Below, piece by piece: positions 1-58,876 of a stretch of DNA of 64,000 bases. The stretch is taken from positions 1,231,001-1,295,000 of the forward strand of contig NZ_CP075190.1 of assembly GCF_020510585.1 (NCBI RefSeq), written 5' to 3'. The position numbers and the translations under genes are program-made. The notes beneath the pieces were generated by a model. It did not search any database. It saw only the letters and a program-made list of their open reading frames with translations, and was not told where the DNA came from. The first letter of the stretch is position 1, and every line of letters starts with the position of its first letter. The DNA comes from Ferribacterium limneticum. GTDB lineage: Bacteria; Pseudomonadota; Gammaproteobacteria; Burkholderiales; Rhodocyclaceae.

Positions 1-1955
1 AGGAGGATGTTGAACAGGCCACCGACGAAGAAGGCGAAGGGGACAATGACGGCGACCATGCCGAGGGCGACCTTGGCGCCTTGTTCCTTGACCATCATCA
101 TGAGGCTGGCGAAGCAGGGGATGAACAGGGTGATGGTGATCATGCCGACCACCGCCTGAATCGGGCTCAGGCTGTGCGCCATGGCGAACAGGCCGGTGGC
201 GCCGAAGTCGCGGCGCAGGAAGCCCATGACGAAGGCGGCCGAGGCTTCCTTGGGCAGGCCGAGCCAGCCCGAGACGAGCGGTTCGCCGGCTTCGATGATG
301 GCCGGCAGAGCGCCACTCTTGTCGAGCGCAAACATGATGAAGGTACCGAGCAAAAAGAGCGGGATGACTTCGATGAGGTACCACTTGAGCCGGCCGCCGG
401 TTTTCTTGAAGACATTGGCAAAAATCGGCAGGCGCATTGGCGGCAGTTCGGTGACCAGCGGGATGCGCCGGCCGGGAATCAACTTGGCGGCGAGGAAGCC
501 GGAGAGCAGGAGGATGCCGACCATGGCTAGCGCCCAGATGACGACGGCGGTAAATGACACGCCACCGAGCATGCCGAGGACGACGCCGAGTTGCGCCGAG
601 CAGGGGATGGCCAGGGCGAGCAGGAAGATGGTGATCAGCCGTTCGCGCCGGCTGTGCAGGATGCGCGTAGTCAGCGTTGCCATCGTTACGCAGCCGAGGC
701 CGAGAACCATCGGCAGCACGGCGCGGCCGTTGAGGCCGATCAGTGAAAACAGCCGGTTGGCGATGACGGTCAGGCGCGGCAGGTAGCCGGAGTCTTCGAG
801 CACGCCGAAGGCGAAAAAGAAGGTGGTGACGATGGGCAGGATCAGCGCCAGCGCGTAGGTCATGCCCATGGTCCACAGGCCGTACTGGCCGACCAGCAAG
901 TCCTGCAGCCAACCGGGACCGACCAACGCGGTGACGAGATGGGTGAAGGCCGGGTTGAGGATGCCTTCGAACAGATCCTTTTCCATCAGGCCGACCAGCA
1001 CGCTGGCACCGAAGACGCCGACGAACTGATAGACGGCGTAGAGCACGCCGAGCAGGATGGGGACGCCCCAGACCGGATGGACGACGTACTGGCCGAGGCG
1101 TTGCGAGAGCAGCGGGCTGCTCTTGACGGCGCGCTGGATGACGCTGGTGGCCAGCGCATCGGCCGCTTCGGTGCGTTCGCGGGCGAGCAGGGCGGGGAGA
1201 TCACCGTCGGCATGGTCGATTGCGTTTTTGCGCAAAATTTCCAGTTGAGCGCGCCCCGAAGGAAGTCCCCCTGGGGGATGGGATTCGCTGGCGCGCTCGA
1301 TCAGCCAGTCGGCAACGACCGAATCGCCGCCGAGGTAAAGAATCGCCAACCCGCGCGCCGCCAGTTGCGGGTGTGGGGCGAGGCGGGTGATGGCGGCGGC
1401 CATGGCGGCAATATCAGCCTCGATTTCTGGGTCGTAGCGCAGCAGCGCTTCGGCGTGCTGGGCGTGGCCGAGGCCATGGGTCAGTTCGCCGATGCCTTCG
1501 CCGCCAGTCGCGACGGTGGCCAGGACGGGGATGCCGAGTTCTTCGGAGAGCGCCGGGATGTCCACCATGACGCCGCGCGCCGCCGCCTCGTCGTGCATGT
1601 TGAGGGCAAGCACCATCGGCACGCCGAGTTCGGCCAGCAGGGCGGTCAGCGTCAGCGTGCGGCGCAGGTTCTTGGCGTCACCGACCTGCACGAGGCAGCG
1701 CGAGGATTCGTTGAGCAGGGCGCGCATGGTCGCCCGTTCGTCATCGCTGCGCGAGGGCAGGGCGAGTACGCCGGGGGTGTCGAGGAGCATCGCTTCGCGG
1801 TCGAAACGGGCACTAGCGCGAGTGACTTCGACGGTGGTGCCGGGGTAGTTCGAAACGTTGACGTAAGCGCCGGTCAGGCGATGAAAGAGGACGGATTTGC
1901 CGACGTTGGGGTGGCCGACGAGCAGGATGGCGTTGGCGGCGGAAGAGGTGGTCAC
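1..1955 (-). CDS. feoB: Ferrous iron transporter FeoB (C-terminus off the window)
   Basis: Inner-membrane Fe(II) permease with an N-terminal GTPase. About 651 codons are present and the frame runs off the left edge. Visible motifs are G1 GHPNVGKS (residues 14-21), the switch NYPGTT (36-41), G3 DTPG (59-62) and G4 NMHD (119-122), followed by long hydrophobic membrane segments. The start is taken as GTG at 1955, because the frame has no nearby upstream ATG and the G1 motif sits at the usual distance; no strong ribosome site is visible. It lies downstream of bfd on the same strand and no feoA is seen between them. A dispersed repeat (1218-1256) is inside the coding frame, in the linker between the GTPase and the membrane part. 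Confidence 0.93.
   Translation of the reverse strand, partial: MTTSSAANAILLVGHPNVGKSVLFHRLTGAYVNVSNYPGTTVEVTRASARFDREAMLLDTPGVLALPSRSDDERATMRALLNESSRCLVQVGDAKNLRRTLTLTALLAELGVPMVLALNMHDEAAARGVMVDIPALSEELGIPVLATVATGGEGIGELTHGLGHAQHAEALLRYDPEIEADIAAMAAAITRLAPHPQLAARGLAILYLGGDSVVADWLIERASESHPPGGLPSGRAQLEILRKNAIDHADGDLPALLARERTEAADALATSVIQRAVKSSPLLSQRLGQYVVHPVWGVPILLGVLYAVYQFVGVFGASVLVGLMEKDLFEGILNPAFTHLVTALVGPGWLQDLLVGQYGLWTMGMTYALALILPIVTTFFFAFGVLEDSGYLPRLTVIANRLFSLIGLNGRAVLPMVLGLGCVTMATLTTRILHSRRERLITIFLLALAIPCSAQLGVVLGMLGGVSFTAVVIWALAMVGILLLSGFLAAKLIPGRRIPLVTELPPMRLPIFANVFKKTGGRLKWYLIEVIPLFLLGTFIMFALDKSGALPAIIEAGEPLVSGWLGLPKEASAAFVMGFLRRDFGATGLFAMAHSLSPIQAVVGMITITLFIPCFASLMMMVKEQGAKVALGMVAVIVPFAFFVGGLFNIL
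1218..1256 (-). repeat. CGGTCAACCGG dispersed repeat, copy 1 of 18 (degenerate, inside feoB)
   Basis: Degenerate copy with core GCTCAACTGG followed by AAATTTTG and GCAAAAAC. It is read in frame by feoB as AQLEILRKN. On its other side it continues into a GCGCCCCGAAGGAAG motif and a CCCCCTGGGGG palindrome, shared with the copy at 15179. Confidence 0.6.
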
Positions 1956-2070
1956 GGTTATTGGATTTCTGGTGTTGCCAAATGCCCGGCGCTTGCCGGG
2001 GAAACCGTCACTCTACGCCGTTTTGAAATGGGTTTTGCTGATCTGGGGCAAGTTTTGGCCGGGTGATCGC

Positions 2071-2107
2071 CACGGTCAACCGGAAATTTCGAGCAAAAAT
2101 CAAATGC
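2071..2107 (+). repeat. CGGTCAACCGG dispersed repeat, copy 2 of 18
   Basis: Exact core CGGTCAACCGG, then AAATTTCGAGCAAAAATC and AAATGC. It lies between the bfd stop and the feoB start. Confidence 0.85.
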
Positions 2108-2111
2108 TGGT

Positions 2112-2315
2112 TCAGGCGGCGAGCGGAAGGTAGGCGTTGGCATGGGCATCGCACTGACGCGCTTCCTTCAAGCACTCGTGGGCGCAGGAGGCGCAACGGC
2201 CGCAGTCCATGGTGACGCCAAGTTGGCGCCGCAGGTCGCCCAAGGTTCGGGCGCCGTCCCGGGCGGCTTCGTGAATCTGACGGTCGGTGACTGCCTTGCA
2301 GACGCAGACGTACAT
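2112..2315 (-). CDS. bfd: Bacterioferritin-associated ferredoxin (Bfd-like [2Fe-2S] protein)
   Basis: A 67-residue protein beginning MYVCVCKAVTD. It has the BFD-like [2Fe-2S] cysteine pattern: CxC at the N-terminus and a later CxxC (CGRCASC). Bfd proteins dock on bacterioferritin and pass electrons to release stored iron. The start at 2315 is chosen because GAGGAGG sits six bases upstream; a longer form would need an upstream TTG lying inside that ribosome site. Two Fur-like boxes precede it, feoB follows, and the bfr pair is just to the right, so iron-controlled storage release is a coherent role. Extra cysteines near the C-terminus (CAHEC, CDAH) are also present. Confidence 0.88.
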   Translation of the reverse strand: MYVCVCKAVTDRQIHEAARDGARTLGDLRRQLGVTMDCGRCASCAHECLKEARQCDAHANAYLPLAA

Positions 2316-2341
2316 GAACTGCCTCCTCAATTACGTTTAAT

Positions 2342-2381
2342 GCGAACAATTCTCATCTTACGGTGTTGAGAATGGTTGTCA
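2342..2381 (-). promoter_or_regulatory. Pair of Fur-like operators before bfd-feoB
   Basis: Two 7-1-7-type sites resembling the Fur consensus TGATAATnATTATCA. TGAGAATGGTTGTCA is at 2367-2381. TGAGAATTGTTCGCA, read on the minus strand, is at 2342-2356. They lie 27-66 bases upstream of the bfd start. Iron repression by Fur is inferred from the sequence match and gene content. Confidence 0.6.
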
Positions 2382-2484
2382 ACAACTATCGTCTATCTGC
2401 ATGGCCAACGGTGTTGCCTTTGCGACAAACGATTGTGCTGATTTCCATACTGAGCAATTCGTGAGCCAGTACGGGCTGAAACGA

Positions 2485-2511
2485 AAAAGCCGCAGGCTGG
2501 CTGCGGCTTTT
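2485..2511 (-). terminator. Rho-independent terminator after the bfr pair
   Basis: Perfect 11-base inverted repeat AAAAGCCGCAG / CTGCGGCTTTT with a 5-base loop. Read leftwards it ends in a run of T, directly after the bfr stop at 2534. Confidence 0.85.
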
Positions 2512-2533
2512 GGCGGTTTTGGCTTCGGGAGGC

Positions 2534-3016: not shown

Positions 3017-3028
3017 CGTCGTCGCTCC

Positions 3029-3514: not shown

Positions 3515-3562
3515 TGCGTTCTCCAGAGATGGTTGGAAGCTAGAGGTTGGCTGGCAAAAGCG

Positions 3563-3572
3563 GCTGGCTGGC
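3563..3572 (-). promoter_or_regulatory. CCAGCCAGC leader motif before bfr
   Basis: GCCAGCCAGC in gene sense about 49 bases before the bfr ATG, with a second GCCAGC nearer the gene. It is one of six such leaders in this window. Confidence 0.4.
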
Positions 3573-3768
3573 CTGAGCGCTCATTTTAGGCGCTGAGCGC
3601 AAGCTTTTCCACCCAGACATGTGGATGCGACCGCAGGTTCGAAAAGGAGTTCAGCCCTTGCCCAAAATTCTCCGGCGAGCGGCTCATCTGTCAGCAGCGG
3701 AAAAAACAGGTAGCATAAAAGCGACCTTTGAAAGTTGAACAAAAAGGCAAGCTCGGAGGGGATACTGT

Positions 3769-10394: not shown

Positions 10395-11874
10395 TACGCA
10401 AAAACAGAAGAAATTGCGTGACCGGGCCGAAGCGAACCTTGCATATCAAAATCAGCCGGACCGGCAACCGGTAGGGAACGATCCACGACAACTGCTGCAC
10501 GATCTGCACGTGCATCAAGCCGAACTTGAGATGCAGAATGAGGAGCTACGCCGGGCTCAGGCTGAACTGGAGGATTCGCGGATGCTATATCGCGATCTTT
10601 ACGATCTGGCGCCGATAGGTTACTGCACCCTCGACGACGAAGGCCTGATAGTGCAAGCCAACCTTACCGCCGCCACCTTGTTGGGTGTGGCTCGCGAGGC
10701 GCTGGTCAAACAGCCAATCCGGCGCTTCATTGCCAAAGAAGAACAAGATACGTTTCACTTCTACAACCAACAGCTCATTTCAACAGAGGGGCTGCATACC
10801 TGCGATCTACGCATGGTGAAGAGTTGTGGATCGACATTTTGGGTACGTCTGAGCTCGGTTTGCGAGGCCAGCCCTGGCAACAAGCCGGTATATCGCCTTA
10901 CCTTTGGCGATATCACCGAGAGCAAGAATCTGGAAGAGGCTTTGCGCGATCAGAAGTCGTTCTTTCATTTGATTGCGGAGAACCTTTCCGACTTCATCGC
11001 GGTGCTCGATACGGAGGGCAGCCGGCTCTATAACAGTCCTTCCTACGAGCAGTTTTTCGGTAATGTCAGCGACTTGCAAGGCACCAATTCATTCGCCGAA
11101 ATTCACCCGGATGACCGGGAGCGCGTCAAACAAGTGTTCATGGAAACCGTCCGGTCCGGCCAGGGGCGCCAGATTTACTATCGCTTCGTATTGGCCGATG
11201 GCAGCATCCGTGACATGGAGTCACGGGGCAGTGTAATCAAGGACAGGGATGGGCAAGTTGTTCGCGTGGTGGTGGTTTCGCACGACATCACCGAGCGCAA
11301 CCGGCTTCTCGAGAAGCTGCATCAAATGGCCTTTCATGATCCCCTGACGCAACTGCCCAATCGCCGGCTGTTCGGTGATCGTCTGAGTCAGGCCATGGCA
11401 GCGAGCACCCGCAGCAGTTGCTATGGTGCCTTGATGTTCCTCGATCTGGACAGCTTCAAGCCGCTCAACGACGCGTACGGACACGATGTTGGCGATTTGC
11501 TGTTGATTCAGGTGGCGGAGCGGCTCAAAGGCTGCGTGCGCGAGATTGATACCGTGGCCCGCTTTGGCGGCGACGAGTTTGTCGTCATGCTGGGGCAGCT
11601 CGACATGGACGAGGCTGAATCGATCTCGCAAGCCGGGAGCATCGCTGAAAAACTGCGGGTTGCCCTGGCCGAGCCCTACATCCTCAACATCGCTCATGCC
11701 GGAGAGGTCGAATCCGTCGTGAGTTATCGATGCACGGCGAGCATTGGTGTCGCTTTGTTCAACCACCAGGAAACAAGCCAGGGCGCCATCCTGAAACGGG
11801 CCGATGCGGCGATGTATCAGGCCAAACATGGCGGCTGCAACCAGGTTCGGTTTTGTCGAGCACAAGCTGCGTGA
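10378..11874 (+). CDS. PAS-domain diguanylate cyclase
   Basis: About 498 residues. A helical segment (DLHVHQAELEMQNEELRRAQ) is followed by two PAS domains (about 60-185 and 190-305) and a GGDEF domain. The active site is intact (RFGGDEFV) and RxxD (REID) sits five residues upstream, the product-inhibition site, so it should make cyclic-di-GMP and be feedback inhibited. It has no EAL domain and is cytoplasmic. The ATG at 10378 overlaps the Crp-type gene by 17 bases; an upstream GTG at 10360 is possible. Its first PAS module resembles that of the kinase at 3769. Confidence 0.92.
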   Translation: MNNSADTQKQKKLRDRAEANLAYQNQPDRQPVGNDPRQLLHDLHVHQAELEMQNEELRRAQAELEDSRMLYRDLYDLAPIGYCTLDDEGLIVQANLTAATLLGVAREALVKQPIRRFIAKEEQDTFHFYNQQLISTEGLHTCDLRMVKSCGSTFWVRLSSVCEASPGNKPVYRLTFGDITESKNLEEALRDQKSFFHLIAENLSDFIAVLDTEGSRLYNSPSYEQFFGNVSDLQGTNSFAEIHPDDRERVKQVFMETVRSGQGRQIYYRFVLADGSIRDMESRGSVIKDRDGQVVRVVVVSHDITERNRLLEKLHQMAFHDPLTQLPNRRLFGDRLSQAMAASTRSSCYGALMFLDLDSFKPLNDAYGHDVGDLLLIQVAERLKGCVREIDTVARFGGDEFVVMLGQLDMDEAESISQAGSIAEKLRVALAEPYILNIAHAGEVESVVSYRCTASIGVALFNHQETSQGAILKRADAAMYQAKHGGCNQVRFCRAQAA

Positions 11875-11929
11875 CGTCTTGTGCCGGCTACTCTTCGCCG
11901 AGTAATGCCGCACCATGATTGGCTGGTTC

Positions 11930-11966
11930 TACGGTCAACCGGAAATAATGGCCAAAAATGAAATGC
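11930..11966 (+). repeat. CGGTCAACCGG dispersed repeat, copy 3 of 18
   Basis: Exact core followed by AAATAATGGCCAAAAATG and AAATGCC. It lies between the convergent diguanylate cyclase and nudC. Confidence 0.85.
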
Positions 11967-15178: not shown

Positions 15179-15213
15179 CCATTTCATTTTTTGCCGTTTT
15201 TTCCGGTTGACCG
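15179..15213 (-). repeat. CGGTCAACCGG dispersed repeat, copy 4 of 18
   Basis: Exact core, then AAAAAACGGCAAAAAATG and AAATGGC. Its outer flank shares GCGCCCCGAAGGAAG and a CACCCTTGGGGTG palindrome with the copy inside feoB. It lies between yedK and the MFS gene. Confidence 0.85.
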
Positions 15214-15251
15214 CGCCCCGAAGGAAGCACCCTTGGGGTGTGGGAACCAGT

Positions 15252-17087: not shown

Positions 17088-17124
17088 ACATTTCATTTTT
17101 GGCCGAAATTTCCGGTTGACCGTG
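17088..17124 (-). repeat. CGGTCAACCGG dispersed repeat, copy 5 of 18
   Basis: Exact core, then AAATTTCGGCCAAAAATG and AAATG. It lies between the cowN stop and the thioesterase. Confidence 0.85.
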
Positions 17125-17141
17125 GAGTTCGCAGAAAACGC

Positions 17142-26303: not shown

Positions 26304-26342
26304 GGCATTTCATTTTTGGCCGTCTTTTCCGGTTGACCGTGG
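26304..26342 (-). repeat. CGGTCAACCGG dispersed repeat, copy 6 of 18
   Basis: Exact core, then AAAAGACGGCCAAAAATG and AAATGCC. It lies between the TPR gene and its terminator. Confidence 0.85.
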
Positions 26343-26352
26343 GATTGGCGGC

Positions 26353-28529: not shown

Positions 28530-28588
28530 GAATAGGGAGCTTATTTGCCTGAAGCAGAGCACCATCGAGATCGGTTTGCGGAGGCTTC

Positions 28589-28624
28589 CACGGTCAACCG
28601 GAAAAAACGGCCAAAATTGAAATA
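28589..28624 (+). repeat. CGGTCAACCGG dispersed repeat, copy 7 of 18
   Basis: Exact core, then AAAAAACGGCCAAAATTG and AAATAG. An orphan reading-frame fragment begins directly to its right. Confidence 0.85.
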
Positions 28625-28819: not shown

Positions 28820-30085
28820 CTACTCGGCTCGGACGGGGCGCAATCTTCTGGCGATGCTGCACCAGTGTTTGGGATCTTCGTAGCCGGTGACACCCCATCT
28901 GGCGCGGTGTGCGTCGCCGCAGACGAGCGGCCGAAGTCGTGACAAATCGAGTTTGTCGTAGGTGACGCCCCACAGGCAACTGGCAGCGTTGTAGGAGGCG
29001 CAGGCCGGGTTGCCGTCCGACATGATTCGGAAAACGGCCAAGCCGCCGTTCGGTGCCGGGAAATCGTGGGATCGCCAGCCGGTCCGTGCCAGCCTTGCTC
29101 TCTCGGCAGCGACTCTGTCAGCTTCGGCCGCCTTTTCGGCGGCAAGCTTATCCGCTTCCCTTCTTTCGCCAGCAATTCTGTCGGCTTCGGCCTGGGCTTG
29201 GGCTTTGGCGCTTTCCAGGCTACGCCGCTCGGCATTGAGCTTCGCCTTCTCCGCAGCCAACTTGTCGGCTTCGGCTTGTTGGTTTGCGCGGTCGCGGGCC
29301 ATCTTGTCCGCTTCCGCCACCCTCGCTTTCTCAGCCGCCATTTTGTCTGCTTCGGCTTTTCGGGCGTATTCCTGCGCCAGTCGGTCCGAATCGGCAGCTA
29401 GTGCTTTCTCGGTTGCAGACCTCTCTTGTTCGGCGGTGTTTTGGTACACCCAGTAACCACCAGCCCCGAGTGCGATGGCCGTCAACGAGAGCGCAATGAG
29501 GGTGAGCGAGTTTTTTCCCGCGGCTGGCGCTGCTCGCGGCGATGTTGCGCCATCTTCTGTCTTTGGCGTGCTCCGGCCTGGCACGGCAGCCTTCTCCGAC
29601 GTTTCGACGCCGCCTTGTTGCAGTGAAGCAACATGCGGGCTCAACGCCTTGATCAGCACTTGAACATCCGAGTCCCAACGCGCGTGCGTCAACTCGACGC
29701 CGTTGCGATAGGCAAGCTCTGTGAGGTCCGTCGGCAACTGGTCAGCGCGCGGCATGCGCGCCCCGTGCACGAGCACTGGCACGACCGGAATGTCGCGCTT
29801 CAACGCCGAGGCGGTTTCAAGGCGGACGAAATCCAAAGGGTCGTCGAGCCGGCGCTGGCCCGCCTCATCCGTGGCGTCGACCCAGCTCTTGCCGATGATC
29901 GCCAGCAACACCCCGCACGAGGCCACGTGCTCATCGATGACGCGGCGAAAATCACGTCCCGGCTCAATGCCGGCCACATCCATGAAGACCGTGTCCTCGC
30001 CGAAATGGCTGATGAGATCGTCGAACAAGCGACCGGCCTGACCTTCGGCATCTTCTCGGCGATAGCTTATGAAAATGGCACGCAT
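28820..30085 (-). CDS. TIR-domain membrane protein with long coiled coil
   Basis: 421 residues. Residues 1-150 are a bacterial TIR domain (FISYRREDAEGQAGRLFDDL, IIGKSWVDA, and DFVRLETA with the conserved Glu at 90). One membrane helix spans about 192-214. Residues 218-350 are a charged Ala/Glu/Lys coiled coil built of repeats such as ADKMAAEKARVAEADKM. The C-terminal 70 residues carry four cysteines. By topology the TIR part is cytoplasmic and the coiled coil and tail periplasmic. TIR domains often cleave NAD in antiviral defence, but such anchored forms may instead signal. Function is inferred only by domain. Confidence 0.88.
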   Translation of the reverse strand: MRAIFISYRREDAEGQAGRLFDDLISHFGEDTVFMDVAGIEPGRDFRRVIDEHVASCGVLLAIIGKSWVDATDEAGQRRLDDPLDFVRLETASALKRDIPVVPVLVHGARMPRADQLPTDLTELAYRNGVELTHARWDSDVQVLIKALSPHVASLQQGGVETSEKAAVPGRSTPKTEDGATSPRAAPAAGKNSLTLIALSLTAIALGAGGYWVYQNTAEQERSATEKALAADSDRLAQEYARKAEADKMAAEKARVAEADKMARDRANQQAEADKLAAEKAKLNAERRSLESAKAQAQAEADRIAGERREADKLAAEKAAEADRVAAERARLARTGWRSHDFPAPNGGLAVFRIMSDGNPACASYNAASCLWGVTYDKLDLSRLRPLVCGDAHRARWGVTGYEDPKHWCSIARRLRPVRAE

Positions 30086-30298
30086 AACGGCCTCCTTGCC
30101 GCGCTATTCAAAGCAACGCGACGTTTAAATATTTCTTTCGTTTATTTCTTGAATCCCGTGCCGTTCAGACTGCGGCCCTCCTGCCAAGTTCCATCCAGCA
30201 TAGTGGTGACAAGGCCGGGTGCAGCGTTGAACGCGACAAGAAAACAATAGGTGTCGGACCGCTACTGTTCGGCCGCTGGGGTAGCGCTGGAGCGGCTT

Positions 30299-30336
30299 CC
30301 ACGGTCAACCGGAAAAAAGCGCGAAATTTGAAAGGG
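30299..30336 (+). repeat. CGGTCAACCGG dispersed repeat, copy 8 of 18
   Basis: Exact core, then AAAAAAGCGCGAAATTTG and AAAGGG. Confidence 0.85.
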
Positions 30337-31918: not shown

Positions 31919-31955
31919 GATTTTGTTTTTGGCTGTTTTTTCCGGGTGACCGTGG
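31919..31955 (-). repeat. CGGTCAACCGG dispersed repeat, copy 9 of 18
   Basis: Core with one change (CGGTCACCCGG), then AAAAAACAGCCAAAAAC and AAAATCGG. Confidence 0.7.
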
Positions 31956-31967
31956 GAGTCAGAAAAA

Positions 31968-32050
31968 CTAATTCACTCTGACCCCTTTGGCTTGATTGAC
32001 CCCTATTGTCGGTTTAATTCGACCCTGGCCCCTTTGATTGCTTTGATTGC
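31968..32050 (+). repeat. REP-like repeat, copy c
   Basis: CTAATTCACTCTGACCCCTT, then TTAATTCGACCCTGGCCCC and TTTGATTGCTTTGATTGC. Confidence 0.65.
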
Positions 32051-32056
32051 GATTGC

Positions 32057-32314
32057 TTATGTGTTGCTGATAACAGCGGCGGGAATGCTATGAATAACGA
32101 GGCAATATTTTTTGCTTGTAGGTGTCGCGGCAAGAACTTTGGTTAGCTTTGCAGATGTGGATTTGCTACGACTCCCTTTACCTTGGTTTGACGCTTTGAC
32201 ATGCGCAAGGGCTCTGCTTTCCGCTTGTGCCTTGCTATCAGCAGTAACAATTACTTCGCGGATGCTTTCGTCTTTGTCGGTGTGGAGATAAACCCTATAT
32301 AAACGGTCAGTCAT
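32057..32314 (-). CDS. Hypothetical protein of the low-GC cassette
   Basis: 85 residues starting MTDRLYRVYLHTDKDE, with TGGAG seven bases before the ATG. It has no recognised domain, a Lys/Ser-rich middle and one cysteine. It is AT-rich compared with the rest of the window and is the last of three AT-rich genes in one direction, suggesting acquisition by transfer. Confidence 0.55.
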   Translation of the reverse strand: MTDRLYRVYLHTDKDESIREVIVTADSKAQAESRALAHVKASNQGKGSRSKSTSAKLTKVLAATPTSKKYCLVIHSIPAAVISNT

Positions 32315-32394
32315 TTTTTGCTCCAAAAATGTGGTTAGTATTACCCAAGAGTGTGTGTTGATAGGTTTGGGTGCTGTTGTTTGGTGATTTTAAT

Positions 32395-32997
32395 TCATGG
32401 CTTACTGTTTATAACACTGGCGGCACTCATGAAAATTAGGGAAATTAGCTCGAGAAGAAGGAGTAAGCAATAAATGAAGGCAAAAAAACTTGCTCCGGCA
32501 AGCTGATGTTGGCCATCAAATATTTTTGCGAAAACAGCGATTATTATGGCCAACACCATCATGAGTAGTGGATAACCCATGTCCGCATTTAATAGGTTTG
32601 TTTTTATTTTTTGGTTGTTCATGGCTCCGGGGAGTGAGAATATTAGTGCATAAACGCCAAGTCCAAAGCCCAATAGGTTTGGGAAAATTGAAATCGTTAA
32701 TTCATATCCAATTTCGCTATGCTGAATTGGTATAATAACCTTGTCAGCAACTGAGCTAAACCAAGGTATGTGTCCACAAATCCACTGCGCAAAGGATTGT
32801 CCGTAAAACAAAAACGTTACAAGAGCTGAAAGAGATAGTCGAAATCCAAATCTAGAAACCCATTGTATTGGAGGCGCAATACGGTCCACGAACAATATGT
32901 CGCCTCGCCAAGCATAGGCATTGACGATCAATGCAATGTCTTTTACAACTGGTATTTTGATCAAGATCCAAAGTAGAAAAACGTATATGTATCTCAC
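32395..32997 (-). CDS. Small inner-membrane protein of the low-GC cassette
   Basis: 200 residues with about five hydrophobic segments (YIYVFLLWILIKIPVV; LSLSALVTFLFYG; LLGFGLGVYALIF; YPLLMMVLAIIIAVFAKI; IYCLLLLLELISLIFM). It starts at GTG 32997, with AAGGAAAGG just upstream and overlapping the end of the preceding gene. It is AT-rich. Family not recognised; pairing with the 298-residue protein suggests a two-component membrane system. Confidence 0.65.
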   Translation of the reverse strand: MRYIYVFLLWILIKIPVVKDIALIVNAYAWRGDILFVDRIAPPIQWVSRFGFRLSLSALVTFLFYGQSFAQWICGHIPWFSSVADKVIIPIQHSEIGYELTISIFPNLLGFGLGVYALIFSLPGAMNNQKIKTNLLNADMGYPLLMMVLAIIIAVFAKIFDGQHQLAGASFFAFIYCLLLLLELISLIFMSAASVINSKP

Positions 32998-33011
32998 ACC
33001 TTTCCTTTCGT

Positions 33012-33908
33012 TTAAACCTTCCTTCGCGACTCTGCCTCGGCTACAGGGATTGATGCCAGAACATTCATTATTAGTCTATCCTCGCTATCAGATGTTCCCT
33101 GAACTACATTTTTTTTGAGAGGGTGATTATTCATATGGAAAACCCTCCTCCGGATGCTTTTCCCAATTTTTTCCATGTATGAAATACTGGCATTTCCATA
33201 AACTTTAGCAGTATTCAAAAACATTCTTGAATAATCGCTAAGCCCCATTTTTCCTGGCGAGTCTGTTTTTTCGATGTGCCCGAGAGTGTGAACGTTATTG
33301 CTCTTTAATTGGGAAACAACCGCATCTACAAATTGATCTGAGTTTGCAAAAGTTAGTTCAACCTCGATACGATTGTATCCACAAGCCTTCTTAAAAACAT
33401 CATCTAAGGCGCTTGAGCTAGATAGCTCTATTACTTTTAATTCATAATCAGAAAAACTGGATTCCACAATCGGTTTTAGAAAATCCTTCAGTGCCAGAGT
33501 AAAGACACTGGCTGCAGGCAAGCTACCATTTTTATCGGAATTTTGCACTGCCATAATGTGTCTGGTGTGATCAAAAACAAATCTAAACGAATATTTCTTT
33601 GAGGTGGAGTTGGGGCCGCCTTTGAATTCAACTTCGTTTGTGTAAAGATCTTTTACCTCTCCTGCTGAATCGAATTTAATAAAATTTCCGGATGTGAATT
33701 TTTCGGATGGGGTAATAATTGAAGGCGAAAATAGCATGTCATTTCGCAATCCATACGCATATATCTTAAGCCGTTGTTTTTTGACTGCAGCATTCACATC
33801 CTTGCGTAATAGATCCATCAATTGTTTATAGCCTACTTCGCCAACATCTCCCGATGTTTTTGTGTCACGAGGTAAAAGCTGCACGTTGTAGTATTTAAAT
33901 ACTGGCAT
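33012..33908 (-). CDS. DUF4747-like protein of the low-GC cassette
   Basis: 298 residues, soluble and AT-rich. The start (VFKYYNVQLLPRDTK), GYKQLMDLL, YGLRNDMLFSP and the C-terminal VYGNASISYMEK remind me of DUF4747 proteins, which are about this length; this is recalled, not searched. The ATG has TGGAG upstream. The membrane protein follows 14 bases downstream and uses a ribosome site at this gene's end. Function unknown; the setting beside TIR and helicase genes suggests defence. Confidence 0.55.
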   Translation of the reverse strand: MPVFKYYNVQLLPRDTKTSGDVGEVGYKQLMDLLRKDVNAAVKKQRLKIYAYGLRNDMLFSPSIITPSEKFTSGNFIKFDSAGEVKDLYTNEVEFKGGPNSTSKKYSFRFVFDHTRHIMAVQNSDKNGSLPAASVFTLALKDFLKPIVESSFSDYELKVIELSSSSALDDVFKKACGYNRIEVELTFANSDQFVDAVVSQLKSNNVHTLGHIEKTDSPGKMGLSDYSRMFLNTAKVYGNASISYMEKIGKSIRRRVFHMNNHPLKKNVVQGTSDSEDRLIMNVLASIPVAEAESRRKV

Positions 33909-34036
33909 GAAAACTCCATTTGCTGATTTAGGTAAATATTTTGATTGTTGCGTTTTGGTAATATCTGTTTATTAATAATTAAATTGCTTCATGGTTATGA
34001 GGCTGTTTAGTGTGTTGGCTGATGGCTATTACAAGA

Positions 34037-35857
34037 TTATTGTTCTCCTGATACGACCAACTCCCTAGTCGCCCGAGTCATCGCCACATACAACAACCGC
34101 GCCTCCTCATCCTTCCGCCCTTCATCCACCGCTCGACCAGCCCCCGGTATCGCCACCAGCGGAAACTCCAGCCCCTTGCAGCTATGCATGGTCAGGAATT
34201 TCACGGTGTCTTCCTGTTCCGCGAAGGTGATGTCGTCCTGATAGGTTACCGGGATGCCGGCTTTTCTTAGTGTGGCCAGCACCGGCTTGCCGATGCCGTA
34301 GTCGCGGTAGATGACGGCCATGTCGCTCCATGGGGTGCCGGTTTTGTGGGCTTCCTTGAGGTGCTTGGCGATGTAGTCGGCTTCTTCCTGGATGCTGGGC
34401 AGTTTGATGAGCAGCGGTTTGGGGCCGTGGCGGCCGGCGCTGATCGGGGCGACGAGGGGTACGCCGTCGTCGTCCGAGGCGCTCGGCTTGAGCAGTTCGC
34501 TGGCGATGCCGCTGGCCAGTTCAAGGACTTCCTGGGTGTTGCGGTAGTTGATCTTGAGGATGGTGGTGCGGCCTTGGGCCTGGATGCCGAGGTTCTTGAA
34601 GCTGAATTTGTTGTGCCGTCCATTGCCGTAGATGGATTGGGCGTCGTCGTACAGGACGAGCAGCGAGTTGGTGCTCGGGTTGACCATCTGGGCGACGAGT
34701 TTGAGCCATTCGGGCTGGAAGTCGTGGCCTTCATCGATGAGCACGGCGTCGTATTGGCCGGCGGGGATGATGTTGGCGTCGACGGCTCGGATGATGCGGT
34801 CGACGAGTTCGCCGGCGTAGGCATCGCTGTCCTTGCCGTTTTCCGGCAGGCCGGCGTTGTAGGCGACGAGTTGCGCGCGGCACCACTGGTGGAAGGTGTG
34901 GACATGCACCTTGTCGGCCAGCCCCTTGGCGTCCATCGTGCGGCTCAGGCGCTTGGCCAGGGTGCGGTTGTAGCAGAGGATGAGTATCGGCCGGGCGCAG
35001 ACTTTGGCGAGGTGTTCGGCGCGGTAGCCGAGGATCAGCGTCTTGCCGCTGCCGGCGACGCCGTGGATGACGCGGTGGCCTTCGCCGAGGCTGCGCGCCA
35101 ATTGTTCCTGCTGCAGGTCCATGACGCGGACGATGTCGGGGATTTCCGGTTCCTGATCATCAAACAGGCCGTTTTGCGTCGGCGCGGCGATGCGGATTTC
35201 GGGAAACAGGTGCCAGCGGATGCGGTCGATCTGGGGCAGGGCGAGCGGCACGCTGCGGGCAAAGGGCAGCATGCCCCACAGCCGTTCCTGAAAGGCTTCG
35301 GCGTCGACGCTTTCGGTCATTTCGTCCTGGCAGATGACGCGGTGGGCTTCGATGACTTCGCCGAGGTTGGTGCTGTCGAATTACTTGCGGCTGATGTTGG
35401 CGAGCACGACGCCGTAGCTCCACGGGAAGAGCAGTGTTCCCTGCATTCGCCCGCTGTTGATGGTCAGTTGCGGGTCGCGTTGCAGCAGATTGCTGACTTC
35501 GTGGGCGTATTGCCGAGCTTGTTCGAGCGGGTTGGCGACGCGCTTGAGGCCATTGGGGGTAAGGATGCTGGCGCTCTGGCGGTCGATGTCGCGGATGGTA
35601 TCGAGCTTCCAGTCCTTGACCTCGAGCACCAGCAAGCCGCGGCGCGGGTTGAAGACAACGAAGTCGGGATGCACGTTGCGCGGGCCGAGCGGTACGTCGT
35701 ACCAGAGCAGCCAGTCGTCTTCGAGCTTTTGTTCGAGGCGGTATGCCAGGCGCCGCTCGCCACCTGTCATGTTCGACACGCAGGTGCCGATTGCCGGTAT
35801 CAGCGCAGCCAAGGCCGCCCCCTTATGCTTTTGTAATCGGCCGATTATGCCATTCAA
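34037..35857 (-). pseudogene. NERD-domain UvrD-like helicase, interrupted by one in-frame stop
   Basis: One frame of about 605 codons carries an N-terminal NERD nuclease-related domain (HPDFVVFNPRRGLLVLEVKD) and a superfamily 1 helicase. The helicase part has Walker A GVAGSGKT, DEGHDF (motif II), and the C-terminal LLYVAMTRATREL. A single TAA at 35381-35383 splits it after NISRK; the next codons continue the same frame with FDSTNLGEV. The residue lost is probably Gln. Either the gene is inactivated, the halves are made separately (ATG at 35320), or the base is an error. A fragment of its NERD part recurs at 37290. Confidence 0.85.
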
Positions 35858-35892
35858 AAACTTCAGGGAGTTTTGCTAATTTGCCTCGATCG

Positions 35893-36078
35893 TGAATTAC
35901 CAGACAAAGAAAACCAGCGTCCACACCGTCGCCATGAGGCCGAACGGCCACAGCATCGCGATCCCGGCATTCCATTTTTTGCCGATTTTTCCGGTTGACC
36001 GTAGAACCAGCTGAAAAAGCCAGCCACAGGCTGCCAAGGCAGCCGGCAGTCAGCAGGCCGATGCGAAACCTCTGGGGC
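35893..36078 (-). pseudogene. Duplicated 3' end of ftrD
   Basis: About 185 bases closely match 39907-40087, the end of ftrD, including its stop codon, its internal dispersed repeat and about 75 bases beyond. Small changes break the frame. It shows that a copy of the ftrD tail moved about 4 kb. No other part of the iron locus is present. Confidence 0.75.
35967..36003 (-). repeat. CGGTCAACCGG dispersed repeat, copy 10 of 18
   Basis: Exact core, then AAAAATCGGCAAAAAATG and GAATGCC, within the ftrD-tail duplicate. Confidence 0.8.
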
Positions 36079-36096: not shown

Positions 36097-36115
36097 GATC
36101 GGTTTGCTAGGCTTC

Positions 36116-36152
36116 CACGGTCAACCGGGGAAAACGGCCAAATTTGAAATGC
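36116..36152 (+). repeat. CGGTCAACCGG dispersed repeat, copy 11 of 18
   Basis: Exact core, then GGAAAACGGCCAAATTTG and AAATGC. Confidence 0.85.
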
Positions 36153-37424: not shown

Positions 37425-37462
37425 GGCATTCTATTTTTGGCTGTTTTTTCCAGTTGACCGTA
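37425..37462 (-). repeat. CGGTCAACCGG dispersed repeat, copy 12 of 18
   Basis: Core with one change (CGGTCAACTGG), then AAAAAACAGCCAAAAATA and GAATGCC. Confidence 0.75.
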
Positions 37463-37566
37463 GAACCTGCTGGAATGCCCTCGATTCCGTGCGCTGCCGA
37501 ACGGAACAAAGCTGGCGCCCGGCGCATGGTGGCGCCGATGCCGAACCTTTCCTGATTGAGATATCA

Positions 37567-39906: not shown

Positions 39907-41298
39907 TTACCAGACAAAGAAAACCAGCGTCCACACCGTCGCCATCAGCCCGACCGGCCACAGCATCGCCAGCCCGGCAGTCCATTTTTGGCCGATTTTT
40001 CCGGTTGACCGTAGAACCAGCTGCAAAGCCAGCCACAAGCTGCCGAGGCAGCCGGCGGTCAGCAGTCCGATGCGGAAATACGGCAGCCAGCCTAGCCACA
40101 GGTGTTCGGCTTTCAAATGGGTGACGGTGAGCATCGACAGGCCGAGGATGACGCTCGCGGCGGCGAGCGGGGTCAGGGCGAGGGTGAAGCGTTGCCAGTT
40201 CAGGTGTTCGGTTTTGAGCAATCTGGCGGCGAGGGCCGGGCCGATCAGGAGCAGGCTGCCGAGCAGGAAGCCGCCGCCGAGCAGGTAGGCGAGGATCAGC
40301 GCGCCGTCGAGCCAGGTAAACAGGTCGCTGGCTTCCGGGTAGTGGGTGAGCAGCCACCACGGCACGTCGTTGTCGAGCAGGGCGAAGTGGTCGTGGTCGA
40401 CGAGCCAGTCGGCGGCGGCCAGTTTGGCGCTGAGCAACCAGGGGCTGAGCGTCCATTGGAAGGCGGCGGTAGCGACGCCAAGCACGCCGTAGACGAGCGT
40501 TAGCGCATCGGGCGTGCGGGCCGGGTTGTTGAAGTCGAGGATTTCGCTGAACGGCGAGCGGGCCGAGTAGGTGACGGCGTCGCGCTGGCCGGCGCAGCGG
40601 CCGCAGCTGTGGCACTCGGAGGCGCTGGTCATGCGGCGGACGTCGAGCAGCGGGGCGCAATTGACCGGTTCGAAGTCACCTTGATACTTGTCCCAGGCGT
40701 CGCGGTCGACCTTGTAGTGGAGCGGGGCGATCTTGGCCAGCACGGCGAAAACGCCCGAGGCCGGGCACAGGTAGCGGCACCAGATGCGCTTTTCGCGGCC
40801 GTAGAGCAGGCCGATGACGATGGCCGCAATGGTCGAGCCGCCGAGGACCAGCAACGCCGCTTGCGGGTATTCGTAAACGCTGACCAGCTGGCCGTAAACC
40901 GTGGTCATCACGAAGGCGACGAAGGGCCAGCCGGTCCATTTGAGCCAGCGCGGCAGCGCCTTGCCCCGGCCGTACTGGCTGACCCATTCGGAAATGGCGC
41001 CTTCCGGGCAGAACAGGCCGCACCAGACGCGGCCCATGGTCACCGTGGCGATCATGACGCCGGGCCACCAGAGGCCCCAGAAGCAGAATTGAGCGAACAG
41101 CCGGAGGTTGTCCCAGATGTGTTGGTCTTCGGCTGGCAAAGGCAAAAACGCCGGGATGATGACCATCGCGGCGTAGAGGACGACGATGACCCACTGGACG
41201 GCGATGATGGACCGGCGATTGTTCCTGAGAAAAAGGCCGATTTTTGCCACCCGGCTTTGCGGGCGGCTGGCGTGGAACTGGATGACGTGTTCAGCCAC
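39907..41298 (-). CDS. ftrD: Polyferredoxin of the Ftr iron transporter (FtrD-like)
   Basis: 463 residues with several membrane helices and ferredoxin-type cysteines: CGLFCPEGA, CRYLCPASG and CHSCGRC (NapH/CcoG-like). In FtrABCD systems FtrD is thought to take electrons from the iron oxidation step at the permease. It overlaps ftrC by 8 bases, so translation is coupled. A dispersed repeat near the end encodes RSTGKIGQK in frame. Its last 60 or so codons have been copied to 35893 and partly to 23733. Confidence 0.88.
   Translation of the reverse strand: MAEHVIQFHASRPQSRVAKIGLFLRNNRRSIIAVQWVIVVLYAAMVIIPAFLPLPAEDQHIWDNLRLFAQFCFWGLWWPGVMIATVTMGRVWCGLFCPEGAISEWVSQYGRGKALPRWLKWTGWPFVAFVMTTVYGQLVSVYEYPQAALLVLGGSTIAAIVIGLLYGREKRIWCRYLCPASGVFAVLAKIAPLHYKVDRDAWDKYQGDFEPVNCAPLLDVRRMTSASECHSCGRCAGQRDAVTYSARSPFSEILDFNNPARTPDALTLVYGVLGVATAAFQWTLSPWLLSAKLAAADWLVDHDHFALLDNDVPWWLLTHYPEASDLFTWLDGALILAYLLGGGFLLGSLLLIGPALAARLLKTEHLNWQRFTLALTPLAAASVILGLSMLTVTHLKAEHLWLGWLPYFRIGLLTAGCLGSLWLALQLVLRSTGKIGQKWTAGLAMLWPVGLMATVWTLVFFVW
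39977..40013 (-). repeat. CGGTCAACCGG dispersed repeat, copy 13 of 18 (inside ftrD)
   Basis: Exact core, then AAAAATCGGCCAAAAATG and GACTGCC. Read in frame by ftrD as RSTGKIGQKW. Confidence 0.85.
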
Positions 41299-42145: not shown

Positions 42146-42478
42146 TTACTTGGCGACGATTTTTCCCTGCCCGGTTTCCGGATGAAAATCGTCAAAGAAC
42201 TTGTACGTCCCCGGTTTCATCGGGAAAAACACGAGGTTGCGTGTCACGCCGGGGGCGAGGACCAGTTCCTTCTTCAATTCAAGGCTCTCGAATTCCGCCG
42301 CGCCCGGCCCTTCATTCTTCACCTCCAGCCGAAAGCGCGTCATGGCCGGCACTTCCAGCGTTTCCGGGTGGAGACGACCATCCTTCATGAGCAGCTTGAT
42401 GGTCGGCATGTCGTCGGCCGATGCCACGGTCAACTGGAAAAAAAGGCTAAAAATGAAAAGCAGGCGGGCGGTTTTCAT
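42146..42478 (-). CDS. ftrB: Periplasmic cupredoxin-like protein (FtrB-like)
   Basis: 110 residues: a signal peptide and one cupredoxin-like domain (HPETLEVPAMTRFRLEVKNE; GTYKFFDDFHPETGQG). In Ftr systems the cupredoxin is thought to oxidise periplasmic Fe(II) for the permease. AAGGAA lies before the ATG. Oddly, part of the signal peptide (LFFQLTVA) is encoded by a dispersed repeat, so the element has been built into a secretion signal. Confidence 0.85.
   Translation of the reverse strand: MKTARLLFIFSLFFQLTVASADDMPTIKLLMKDGRLHPETLEVPAMTRFRLEVKNEGPGAAEFESLELKKELVLAPGVTRNLVFFPMKPGTYKFFDDFHPETGQGKIVAK
42423..42460 (+). repeat. CGGTCAACCGG dispersed repeat, copy 14 of 18 (in the ftrB signal peptide)
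   Basis: Core with one change (CGGTCAACTGG), then AAAAAAAGGCTAAAAATG and AAAAGC. The opposite strand is read by ftrB as FFQLTVA. Confidence 0.75.
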
Positions 42479-49278: not shown

Positions 49279-49314
49279 GGGTTTTAATTTTGGGCAAAAA
49301 ATCCGGTTGACCGT
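49279..49314 (-). repeat. CGGTCAACCGG dispersed repeat, copy 15 of 18
   Basis: Exact core, then ATTTTTTGCCCAAAATTA and AAACCCC. It lies between the receptor and the DUF1513 gene. Confidence 0.75.
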
Positions 49315-49331
49315 AACAAGTTGAATTGATC

Positions 49332-53969: not shown

Positions 53970-54007
53970 GGTATTTCAATTTTGGCGAAAATTTCCGGTT
54001 GACCGTG
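53970..54007 (-). repeat. CGGTCAACCGG dispersed repeat, copy 16 of 18
   Basis: Exact core, then AAATTTTCGCCAAAATTG and AAATACC. It lies between the coiled-coil gene and the DUF2325 gene. Confidence 0.85.
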
Positions 54008-54043
54008 GGATCGGTGATCCCGGTTCGCCAAGGCTGGTAAATC

Positions 54044-54927: not shown

Positions 54928-54952
54928 AAGGCCACGGACTTGCCGTGGCCTT
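54928..54952 (-). terminator. Rho-independent terminator after deaD
   Basis: Ten-base stem AAGGCCACGG / CCGTGGCCTT with an ACTTG loop and, read leftwards, a T-rich tail. Confidence 0.85.
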
Positions 54953-54976
54953 GATTGTCTTGCCGCTTAGGCGTGA

Positions 54977-56794: not shown

Positions 56795-56995
56795 AGATGC
56801 TGTTTCCTTTCATCGTCGCCATTCACATTGTTATAACCGGCGACGGATTGGCCCGATGGTCGGGCGGCCTGGGTGACCCCGACGCAGCCATGCCGGGGAA
56901 CGAATCAATGGGGTGAATCCTGCACAAGAACCTACGAAACCGGTGGCTGCTCGGAATGACTGCGGGCGAAACATCAACGCATTGAACTGATTATT

Positions 56996-57787
56996 CTACC
57001 TTTTTTTTGCGAGGACCGCCAGTTCACCAGCGCTGAAGCCAGCTGCGAGGCGCGCCGCTTCGTTCATTTTTCCTTGTGGCCATGGCGCTTGATAGCGGGT
57101 GAGCAGGTCGCGGTAAGTGCTTTCCGGCTCAAGCCCGCGCTCGGCGCACAGGTGGCGATACCAGCGGTCGCCGAGGCCGACGTGGCCGATTTCATCGCGC
57201 AAAATGATGTCGAGGGCGCGGGCGCTTTCGTGGTCGCCAACCTGTTCGAGTTTCATCTGGATGGGCGGCGTGGCGTCGAGGCCACGTGCTTCGAGCAGGC
57301 GGGGCACCAACGCCATGCGGACGAGGGCGTCGTCGACCGTTTTTTCGGCCATGTCCCACAGGCCGGCATGGGCCGGGAAGTCGCCGTAGTCGTAGCCGAG
57401 GGATTGCAGGCGGGTGCGCAGCAGTTCGAAATGTTCGGCTTCTTCGGCCGCAACACCGATCCAGTCGGCGTAATAGGCTTCCGGCAGGCCGCGAAAGCGG
57501 GCGGCGTGGTCGAGGGCGAGGTTGATGGCCGAAAATTCGATGTGCACGATGGCATGGAGCAGGCGGGCGCGACCTTCCGGCGTTCCCGGGTTGCGATTTG
57601 GCACGTCTTTATGGGGCAGCAGCTCGGGTTTGGCCGGCCGGCCGCAAGTCAGCGTCACCGGCGTGCTGTCGCGACTATCCAGCTTGCCGGCCTGCCAGTC
57701 AGTGGCGATTGCTACGGTCAACCGGATTTTTTGGCCAATTTCGGAAACGGCCAGGGCTTCGGCCAGGCGGACGAAAAGCGACTCCAT
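56996..57787 (-). CDS. DUF455 ferritin-like protein
   Basis: 263 residues of the DUF455 family: a ferritin-like helical domain with likely di-iron ligands (HAIVHIEFSAINLALDHAAR; AAEEAEHFELL; ILRDEIGHVGLG). Activity is not established. The start at 57787 overlaps the aldo-keto reductase stop (ATGA). A dispersed repeat (57712-57749) encodes QKIRLTVA near its N-terminus. Confidence 0.88.
   Translation of the reverse strand: MESLFVRLAEALAVSEIGQKIRLTVAIATDWQAGKLDSRDSTPVTLTCGRPAKPELLPHKDVPNRNPGTPEGRARLLHAIVHIEFSAINLALDHAARFRGLPEAYYADWIGVAAEEAEHFELLRTRLQSLGYDYGDFPAHAGLWDMAEKTVDDALVRMALVPRLLEARGLDATPPIQMKLEQVGDHESARALDIILRDEIGHVGLGDRWYRHLCAERGLEPESTYRDLLTRYQAPWPQGKMNEAARLAAGFSAGELAVLAKKR
57712..57749 (+). 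repeat. CGGTCAACCGG dispersed repeat, copy 17 of 18 (inside the DUF455 gene)
   Basis: Exact core, then ATTTTTTGGCCAATTTCG. The opposite strand is read in frame as IGQKIRLTVA. Confidence 0.75.
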
Positions 57788-58833
57788 CAGGGCGCCGGGT
57801 TGGTGTAGCGCAGGTGGATGGTGTCGATTTCGCCGAGTATTTCTGGCGAAAGCGTCGTCTGCATGGCGGGCAGGGTTTCCTTGAGTTGGGCCAGCGAGGA
57901 GGCGCCGATGATCGTGCTGGCCACGAACCAGCGCGAACGCGAGAAGCCGAGCGCCAACTGCGTCGGCGTCAGGCCATGTTTGTGGGCGAGTTCAACGTAG
58001 GCCTGGACGGCGGGGGCGACGTTCGGCTTGCTGTAACGCTGGCCGAAGGCCGGCCATTGGGTGATACGGCCGGCGGCGTTCGGGTTGGCCAGATACTTGC
58101 CGGTCAGATGGCCGAAGCCGAGGGCCGAATAGACCAGCAGCCCGACTTGCTGACGATGACAGACTTCGGCCAGGCCGGTTTCGAAAGTCCGGTTGAGCAG
58201 GCTGTAGGCGTTCTGCGTCGAAACAATGCGCGGCAGCCCGAGTTCATCGGCCAGCCGGGTGAATTCCATGATGCCCCATGGATGCTCGTTGGAGACGCCA
58301 ACGTGGCGAATTTTGCCTTCCTTGACCAGTTCGCCAAGCACTTCGAGCTGTTCGCGGATCGGCGTGCCTTCCCGCTCGTTTTTCGGGTCGAACTGCCATT
58401 GCCCGAACATCGGCTGGTTGCGCTCCGGCCAGTGCAGTTGATAGAGGTCGACGTAGTCCGTCTGCAGGCGCTGCAGCGAGCCGTCGAGGGCGGCGCGGAT
58501 ATTGGCGCGGTCGAGTGCTGGTGGGCCGTTGCGAATCCAGCCCAGGTTGCGGCTCGGGCCGGCGACCTTGGTGGCGATCTGGATCTGGTCGCGCTGCTGG
58601 CGTTTCAGCCAGCGCCCGACGATGCTTTCCGATGCGCCGCAGGTTTCGGCTCGCGGCGGAACGGCGTACATCTCGGCCGTATCGATGAAGCCGATGCCGG
58701 CGGCCAGAGCAAAATCGAGCTGGGCATGGGCGTCAGCCTCGCTGGTTTGTTCGCCGAAAGTCATGGTGCCGAGGCAGACCTCGGGGACGATAAAATTGCT
58801 ACGGCCAAGCTGGCGGGTTTGGAACGGGGTCAT
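57787..58833 (-). CDS. Tas-like aldo/keto reductase
   Basis: 348 residues, NADPH-dependent aldo/keto reductase fold. The catalytic Tyr is in DTAEMYAVPPR, the Lys in IATKVAG and the His in YQLHWPER. It resembles E. coli Tas. The physiological carbonyl substrate is unknown. It overlaps the DUF455 start by one base. Confidence 0.92.
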   Translation of the reverse strand: MTPFQTRQLGRSNFIVPEVCLGTMTFGEQTSEADAHAQLDFALAAGIGFIDTAEMYAVPPRAETCGASESIVGRWLKRQQRDQIQIATKVAGPSRNLGWIRNGPPALDRANIRAALDGSLQRLQTDYVDLYQLHWPERNQPMFGQWQFDPKNEREGTPIREQLEVLGELVKEGKIRHVGVSNEHPWGIMEFTRLADELGLPRIVSTQNAYSLLNRTFETGLAEVCHRQQVGLLVYSALGFGHLTGKYLANPNAAGRITQWPAFGQRYSKPNVAPAVQAYVELAHKHGLTPTQLALGFSRSRWFVASTIIGASSLAQLKETLPAMQTTLSPEILGEIDTIHLRYTNPAP

Positions 58834-58842
58834 GGGCAGACT

Positions 58843-58876
58843 CCAATATTGAGCAAAAATCAGGGTTGACCGCAGA
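58843..58876 (-). repeat. CGGTCAACCGG dispersed repeat, copy 18 of 18 (degenerate)
   Basis: Core varies as CGGTCAACCCT, then GATTTTTGCTCAATATTGG. It supplies the last codons (CGQP) and stop of the gene ending at 58860. Confidence 0.6.

Follow-up and report, generated by a model that had tools for sequence, protein, structure and literature searches.

What is the short sequence that recurs across a 64,000-nucleotide stretch of the Ferribacterium limneticum chromosome, and how have its copies come to be there? This stretch (hereafter the window) corresponds to positions 1231001-1295000 of a source genome assembled as a single contig of 4,419,140 bases, here named G000. An earlier note, made from its letters, had described a dispersed element with a conserved 11-base core followed by two A/T tracts, and had proposed that it is laid out like a DNA-uptake sequence, with a small mobile repeat or a nucleoid-protein site as alternatives. 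We followed the element through the whole genome and through its relatives, and we consider it quite probable that it is a genus-wide candidate DNA-uptake sequence, working like the uptake signal sequence (USS) of the Pasteurellaceae. The interpretation first proposed is thus supported by a strong consensus, a lack of strand bias, an even spacing, an enrichment in the gaps between genes, change by substitution, and the existence of dialects.

Anatomy, abundance and placement of the element

In the window, a pattern search allowing at most one mismatch to the core CGGTCAACCGG returned 18 matches (13 exact and 5 with one mismatch); shuffled versions of the window gave a mean of 1.59 matches, and 18 was reached in 0 of 100 shuffles. 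A 40-bp profile built on G000 also identified 18 sites. The number of copies first announced is therefore the same by both routes, with end points that agree within a few bases, and the thirteen exact cores were recovered as well. The lists disagree at two entries, since the one-mismatch cores at 11107 and 51416 have no A/T tracts; we rejected them as copies of the element, and the sites at 1219-1258 and 58840-58879 replace them in the profile list. The chance figure of 0.03 exact cores per 64 kb given at the outset was too low, since the reversed pattern, which serves as a control, occurs 27 times in 4.42 Mb (i.e., about 0.4 per 64 kb), a value that the 13 exact cores of the window still far exceed. 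Over the whole of G000, the exact core is found 491 times, so that the element is not confined to the window, and the two orientations, with 240 and 251 exact cores (reversed pattern: 13 and 14), show no strand bias.

The 40-bp profile was seeded with exact cores and trained on the same 864 kb of G000 that it describes, and is thus partly circular. This sample, to which the figures on anatomy, profile sites and placement given below refer, is made up of two distant segments, and the element was found in both. It holds 195 sites of at least 12 bits and 216 of at least 6 bits, with 0 in the reversed sequence at either threshold, which by extrapolation makes perhaps 1,000 copies in the whole genome. 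Among the 195 sites, 106 carry the exact core and 51 a core with one mismatch, a strong consensus for a profile seeded with exact cores. The density is one copy per about 4.4 kb in the sample and per 3.6 kb in the window, where one per 3.5 kb had been estimated.

Around the 110 exact cores of the sample, conservation spans about -7 to +32, counted from the core's first base, and is slight outside this range; the element has the 40-bp consensus TnCYA-CGGTCRACCGG-AAAWWW-nGGCC-AAAWWTGAAAT, with an information content of about 47 bits in total. On the 5' side, position -7 weakly favours A/G, and -5, -3, -2, and -1 carry T, C, C/T, and A, respectively. The core itself, CGGTC(A/G)AC-CGG, occupies 0 to +10; CGGTC and the AC that comes after R are nearly invariant, and the CGG at +8 to +10 is weaker. 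Then come the first tract AAAWWW (+11 to +16), n-GGCC (+17 to +21), the second tract AAAWWT (+22 to +27), and GAAAT (+28 to +32). The two A/T tracts are 11 bases apart, which bears out the layout described from the window; at +14 to +16 and +24 to +26, A and T are mixed and C or G is rare. When R is G, the core, CGGTCGACCG, is a perfect short palindrome, and the direction of the element comes from its one-sided A/T tracts.

Genes were predicted with a gene finder made for this analysis, not taken from a curated annotation. By these predictions, 93 of the 195 sites lie wholly in genes, 83 wholly outside, and 19 partly; because genes fill 89.6% of the sample, the gaps are enriched in copies roughly 7- to 8-fold. 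Convergent gaps hold 33 of the 83 noncoding sites in 11.9 of the 70.2 kb available. Of the coding copies, 90 could be placed relative to their gene; 55 follow its direction and 35 oppose it, and 43 of the 55 same-strand copies are in one frame, reading TVNRK or similar. The spacing is more even than uniform placement gives: its coefficient of variation is 0.81 and 0.84 in the two segments, versus 0.99, and only 2.3% and 3.5% of 1,000 simulations were as even. When the sample was divided into 5-kb windows according to GC content, 12 sites were found in the 19 windows below 56%, 158 in the 118 windows of at least 60%, and 25 in the 35 between. Low-GC windows, taken as a proxy for acquired DNA, are thus poor in copies despite the A/T tracts of the element itself. 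The full motif had 0 exact matches in viral contigs, which, being without assigned hosts, say little. A YifB-family gene of G000, called ComM in the competence literature, itself holds a copy.

Origin of the copies and dialects among relatives

The copies arise by mutation or recombination and not generally as an inserted unit, the exceptions being the 16 of 195 copies with repeated flanks and one 65-bp gap, both discussed below. This case rests on unique flanks, on ungapped coding sites among relatives of the same dialect, on three proteins, and on the absence of unit-sized gaps. Indeed, 179 of the 195 copies have unique 150-bp flanks. In the comparison with relatives of the G000 dialect, made on nine genomes and on 63 named loci fetched because they hold the motif, all 29 alignments of coding copies (13 sites) are ungapped and keep a site of at least 12 bits; gaps within the 40 bp occur in 24 of 85 noncoding alignments. 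With motif-poor relatives, they occur in 7 of 10 coding and 3 of 3 noncoding alignments. Three conserved genes chosen by hand were compared with distant homologues: dtd (D-aminoacyl-tRNA deacylase), gatA (GatA), and rpoC (RpoC), the last identified by the listed molecule names. The element-coded residues are ungapped in 3/3 printed alignments for dtd, 3/3 for gatA, and 1/2 for rpoC, where 8t00_J differs by one residue; together, 7 of 8 printed alignments have no gaps across the element. Finally, among 160 alignments that span the site in relatives, not one is missing the unit alone, and the longest missing run within the 40 bp is 14. The site at 213972 was considered as an empty site in G154 and rejected, the sequence being only diverged, with no clear edge.

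The differences between relatives also point to a constraint on A-or-T as such in the tracts, on a small sample. Where loci had been picked by synteny (6 sites in 9 relatives), A-T swaps account for 16 of 20 differences at W positions, or for 6 of 9 when each distinct change is counted once, versus 351 of 4,698 differences in the flanks; in the named loci without an exact pattern match, 3 of 5 are such swaps. The overall figure of 37/43 is biased, with a biased remainder of 18/18, since the named loci were fetched by a pattern that fixes W. In the core, 3 of 319 compared positions differ.

Among 76 genomes of the genus, 11 contain 158-491 exact cores and the others at most 97. G153, one of these others, has a form of its own: word counts in 200 kb gave 36 copies of AGCGGTCGAC, where 3.0 were expected, and the two A/T tracts follow it here too. 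For this reason, we searched all 76 genomes with the layout pattern CGGTCRAC-N5-W4-N6-W4, which occurs 49-753 times in 41 genomes and 0-33 times in 35, the reversed control giving at most 5. The cut between motif-rich (at least 49) and motif-poor (at most 33) genomes is our own choice, and several motif-poor genomes with 24-33 layout copies exceed their own control of 0-1. Outside the genus, there are at most 4 layout copies in any of 285 genomes of the family and 393 of the order (7 shared by both sets). The exact full motif was also found in 63 stretches of named records, all titled metagenome-assembled genomes and labelled Rhodocyclaceae, Azonexaceae, Azonexus sp., or Dechloromonas sp., some merely Betaproteobacteria, Proteobacteria, or Gammaproteobacteria.

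Dialects differ between species, sometimes at one place in one gene. At the DUF455 gene of the window (copy at 57708-57747), nine G000-dialect relatives have the G000-like form at the same place without insertion or deletion, and G175, G153, and G158 have altered forms there; for the copy at 39979-40018, aligned counterparts exist in G175 and in four relatives of the G000 dialect. When no condition is set on the tracts, the sequence after CGGTCRAC is A/T-rich at two places in G000, G175, G147, G153, and G158 and not in G202, a motif-poor genome in which no other motif with A/T tracts was found in 200 kb. At +8 to +10, G000 has CGG (127/380), G147 has CGT (18/62), G153 has CGC (25/162) and GCC (15/162), and G175 has CGC and GGC (12/82 each). 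Iterated profiles differ among these four genomes in agreement with the counts. Those of G175 and G147 began from sites chosen by the tract condition, but the tracts also show without it; G158, with 5 seeds in 120 kb, has no profile, and its tracts were seen at unconditioned core sites. When 29 genomes are placed on a comEC tree, those of the G000 dialect cluster, with the motif-poor G169 (whose comEC is incomplete) among them, and the other motif-poor lineages are scattered. This scattering suggests several losses of the motif within the genus, as far as one gene, partly from fragments, can tell.

The uptake interpretation and its alternatives

In the available text of two papers, the features listed for USS and for the DNA uptake sequence (DUS) of the Neisseriaceae are a strong consensus, no strand bias, even spacing, a preference for gaps along with genic copies, a non-insertion origin, subclade types, and scarcity in foreign DNA (PMC1626085, PMC2397512). 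The element agrees with this list in most points, scarcity in foreign DNA being gauged here by the low-GC proxy, and we read it as a probable uptake sequence. It would be a tag for recognising self DNA, held at the cell surface by what is most likely a type IV (minor) pilin, and would lead the competence machinery to import DNA from the species itself or from close kin. The receptor would read the CGGTCRAC core and would depend on two A/T tracts that are bent or open easily and lie one helical turn from each other. Biased uptake and recombination would then multiply the tag, a process of molecular drive, and a change of receptor could drive the dialects.

The competence genes, to which the earlier note had pointed as a check, answer it in part. 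G000 has ComEC, a ComEA-type protein, and DprA. ComEC was found in 71 of 76 genus genomes, including 51 of 51 good ones, the five without a match being all under 90% complete; DprA and a ComEA-type match were found in 16 of 16 genomes tested, the latter above the curated cut-off in 15. These genes are present in motif-rich and motif-poor species alike and do not separate them; they therefore allow the uptake hypothesis without singling it out.

Several observations weigh against the candidate uptake sequence. The presence of comEC, comEA, and dprA in motif-poor species is one of them, and the motif-rich and complete G218 has no ComEA-type match above the curated cut-off. Loss of comEC as the cause of motif poverty was rejected, incomplete matches (read by eye) being 7/41 in motif-rich and 7/35 in motif-poor genomes. 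A survey of GspH/FimT proteins for the receptor in 16 genomes gave heterogeneous paralogues with no sorting by motif, two of its rows (G156 and G202) looking like mis-picked PilV-type proteins. The density of one copy per 4.4 kb is below the approximately 1 per kb of USS and DUS (PMC1626085), and only two pairs of sites within 300 bp exist among the 195, one of them on opposite strands; close opposite-strand pairs are described for USS and DUS as common but non-essential (PMC1626085). In other dialects, many small gaps interrupt the 40 bp (13 of 24 coding and 8 of 9 noncoding alignments). At one intergenic locus (segment B 311029, G000 ~1382029), G153 lacks a 65-bp stretch that starts roughly 32 bp ahead of the element and takes it in. 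Finally, the 16 copies with repeated flanks form five clusters, one of which (six sites) is the middle of a 540-bp palindrome and another a duplicated gene.

These last two observations are also what would speak for a small mobile repeat, of the kind of miniature inverted-repeat transposable elements or repetitive extragenic palindromes, inserted as a unit. This origin is largely refuted and has become very improbable: most flanks are unique, 93 copies lie within predicted genes, no missing run inside the 40 bp exceeds 14 bases, the dialects have only the layout in common, and the 65-bp gap itself is not unit-sized, beginning some 32 bp before the element. Among the signs by which the earlier note would have recognised a mobile repeat, neither confinement to this region nor clean absence of the unit was found for the bulk of the copies; the six copies in the palindrome and the one gap point partly the other way. 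The enrichment in convergent gaps bears on two further alternatives. Uptake sequences themselves often lie in terminators (PMC13020248), and a transcription terminator or another RNA element could be favored in such gaps; we give this scarcely any credit, since about half of the copies are in genes, in both orientations, one 1.2-kb stretch tested had no Rfam match, and no long stem is conserved, although the G form of the core is a short palindrome. The same 33 of 83 noncoding sites could suit a site for chromosome structure.

This leads to a scattered chromosomal site recognised inside the cell by a nucleoid-associated protein, a chromosome-segregation protein, or a global regulator, with which it would have co-evolved to give dialects. 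We regard this explanation as improbable, though less so than the two preceding ones. The sharp edges of the 40 bp and the A-or-T tracts would fit any DNA-bending protein. Against this, there are hundreds of strong sites, some of them in rpoC, gatA, and dtd; they show no strand bias, are present in both distant segments, and are few in low-GC stretches. It would moreover be hard to move this many sites to another dialect without a copying drive, a point of argument and not a test.

Some observations on the repeats and genes just mentioned deserve a place here. The 540-bp imperfect palindrome is intergenic, has terminal inverted repeats (GCTTGGGGTTCCGCC...), and occurs six times in the 864 kb (e.g., G000 ~269793-270332, L085:9793-10332), each time with one strong element copy close to the middle, as though the element had been picked up by a mobile repeat; the one palindrome copy tested matched no Rfam family. 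As for ComEC, G202 (C1:2218607-2251879) and G182 (C33:109525-144033) have the domain broken near profile positions 26-29, the two halves lying ~32-34 kb apart, and the matches of G157 and G205 start at profile positions 26 and 27. This suggests putative integrative elements with comEC as target in G202 and G182, perhaps also in G157 and G205. In G158, G219, G220, G197, and G194, the match begins at profile position 11 or 12 in a shorter frame (499-571 aa), which may be a second recurrent break or an unusual start.

If the element is indeed an uptake sequence, tag-guided uptake, a form of bacterial sex, would not be limited to Neisseriaceae and Pasteurellaceae. The approximately 41 genomes with several dialects, together with the 35 motif-poor relatives, would then be a place to find the receptor and would allow one to test whether uptake bias alone spreads tags. 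The tag, added to DNA, could also aid the transformation of members of the genus.

Copies in the window and known systems

The 18 copies of the window are collected in the table.

Copies of the 40-bp element in the window, with the main basis for each
Feature	Position	Strand	Basis
Weak copy (25 bits), core CGCTCAACTGG	1219..1258	-	profile
Exact core, between predicted genes	2066..2105	+	pattern + profile
Exact core, between convergent genes	11925..11964	+	pattern + profile
Exact core	15181..15220	-	pattern + profile
Exact core	17090..17129	-	pattern + profile
Exact core	26307..26346	-	pattern + profile
Exact core, convergent gap	28584..28623	+	pattern + profile
Exact core	30295..30334	+	pattern + profile
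Core CGGTCACCCGG	31920..31959	-	pattern + profile
Exact core, flank similar to copy at 39979	35969..36008	-	pattern + profile, flank comparison
Exact core, opposite-strand pair with 35969	36111..36150	+	pattern + profile
Core CGGTCAACTGG	37428..37467	-	pattern + profile
In open reading frame (ORF) 39907-41298 (4Fe-4S domain, PF12801)	39979..40018	-	profile, domain search
In start of cupredoxin-like gene (ORF 42146-42478, minus)	42420..42459	+	profile
Exact core, between predicted genes	49281..49320	-	pattern + profile
Exact core, between predicted genes	53973..54012	-	pattern + profile
In DUF455 gene (ORF 56996-57787, minus)	57708..57747	+	profile
Copy (28 bits), just upstream of aldo/keto reductase gene (57787-58833, minus)	58840..58879	-	profile

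The flank cluster that joins the copies at 35969 and 39979 also takes in those at 36111 and 31920; a piece of the 3' part of the 4Fe-4S gene seems to be duplicated around 35.9-36.1 kb and 39.9-40.1 kb. The 5' string CGGGGCG stands in place of TnCYA at 1219-1258, at 15181-15220, and at G000 214592, and is perhaps another short repeat beside the element. Between the copies, the gene at 28820-30085 encodes a protein with an N-terminal TIR domain (PF13676) and a weak, sub-cut-off match to a Thoeris III model, a possible candidate defence gene. The stretch 32001-36000, at 50% GC and with a UvrD-like helicase gene, is perhaps acquired DNA.

Chi, the FtsK-orienting polar sequences (KOPS), and matS are likewise short repeats, dispersed over all or much of a chromosome. 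Chi and KOPS have about 8 bp and are strand-biased, and matS is confined to the terminus in tens of copies; the present element, on the contrary, has 40 bp, hundreds of copies, and no strand bias. According to the available text of a 2025 paper, sequence tags for uptake are known only from Neisseriaceae and Pasteurellaceae (PMC12616744). The earlier note knew of no such element in Rhodocyclales, and our searches of the open-access literature (few subscription journals, no preprints) likewise turned up none for Rhodocyclales, Azonexus, or Dechloromonas.

With the DUS, the element shares dialects among relatives around a constant inner core, a genome-wide distribution, and a preference for gaps; as described in these sources, however, the DUS, GCCGTCTGAA, has 10-12 bp without flanking A/T motifs, about 1 copy per kb, and a known receptor, ComP (PMC3630211, PMC12616744, PMC1626085). 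The USS has two subclade types, Hin AAGTGCGGT and Apl ACAAGCGGT (PMC1626085). In both USS and the present element, two A/T-rich segments, separated by about one helical turn, lie 3' of a core, with copies on both strands, many of them genic, and a mutational origin (PMC1626085). The G153 form (A)GCGGTC is the end of the Apl core plus C, and the third Apl segment, AAAATTTTGCAAAT, resembles the AAAWWTGAAAT found here. On the other hand, the host belongs to the Betaproteobacteria by the labels of its named relatives, unlike the gammaproteobacterial Pasteurellaceae, and the element has a longer core (CGGTCRAC and three bases) before the first tract, a conserved 5' TnCYA, and a lower density. Neither Pasteurellaceae core is matched here, the core being CGGTCRAC with dialect-specific flanks. 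We thus describe the element as probably USS-like in its working and do not class it as a Pasteurellaceae USS, whose own receptor is given as only predicted (ComN/PpdA, in the available text of PMC12616744). A more tentative and rather unlikely proposal is that, in a third lineage with sequence-specific uptake, the tag is built on the physical design of the USS, with a core of the GCGGTC type and two A/T tracts in phase, of which the second ends in TG(C)AAAT. Dialects and repeated loss within one genus would then let the co-evolution of tag and receptor be followed species by species. The likeness would come either from homology of the receptors or from their convergence on a single mode of reading and kinking DNA.

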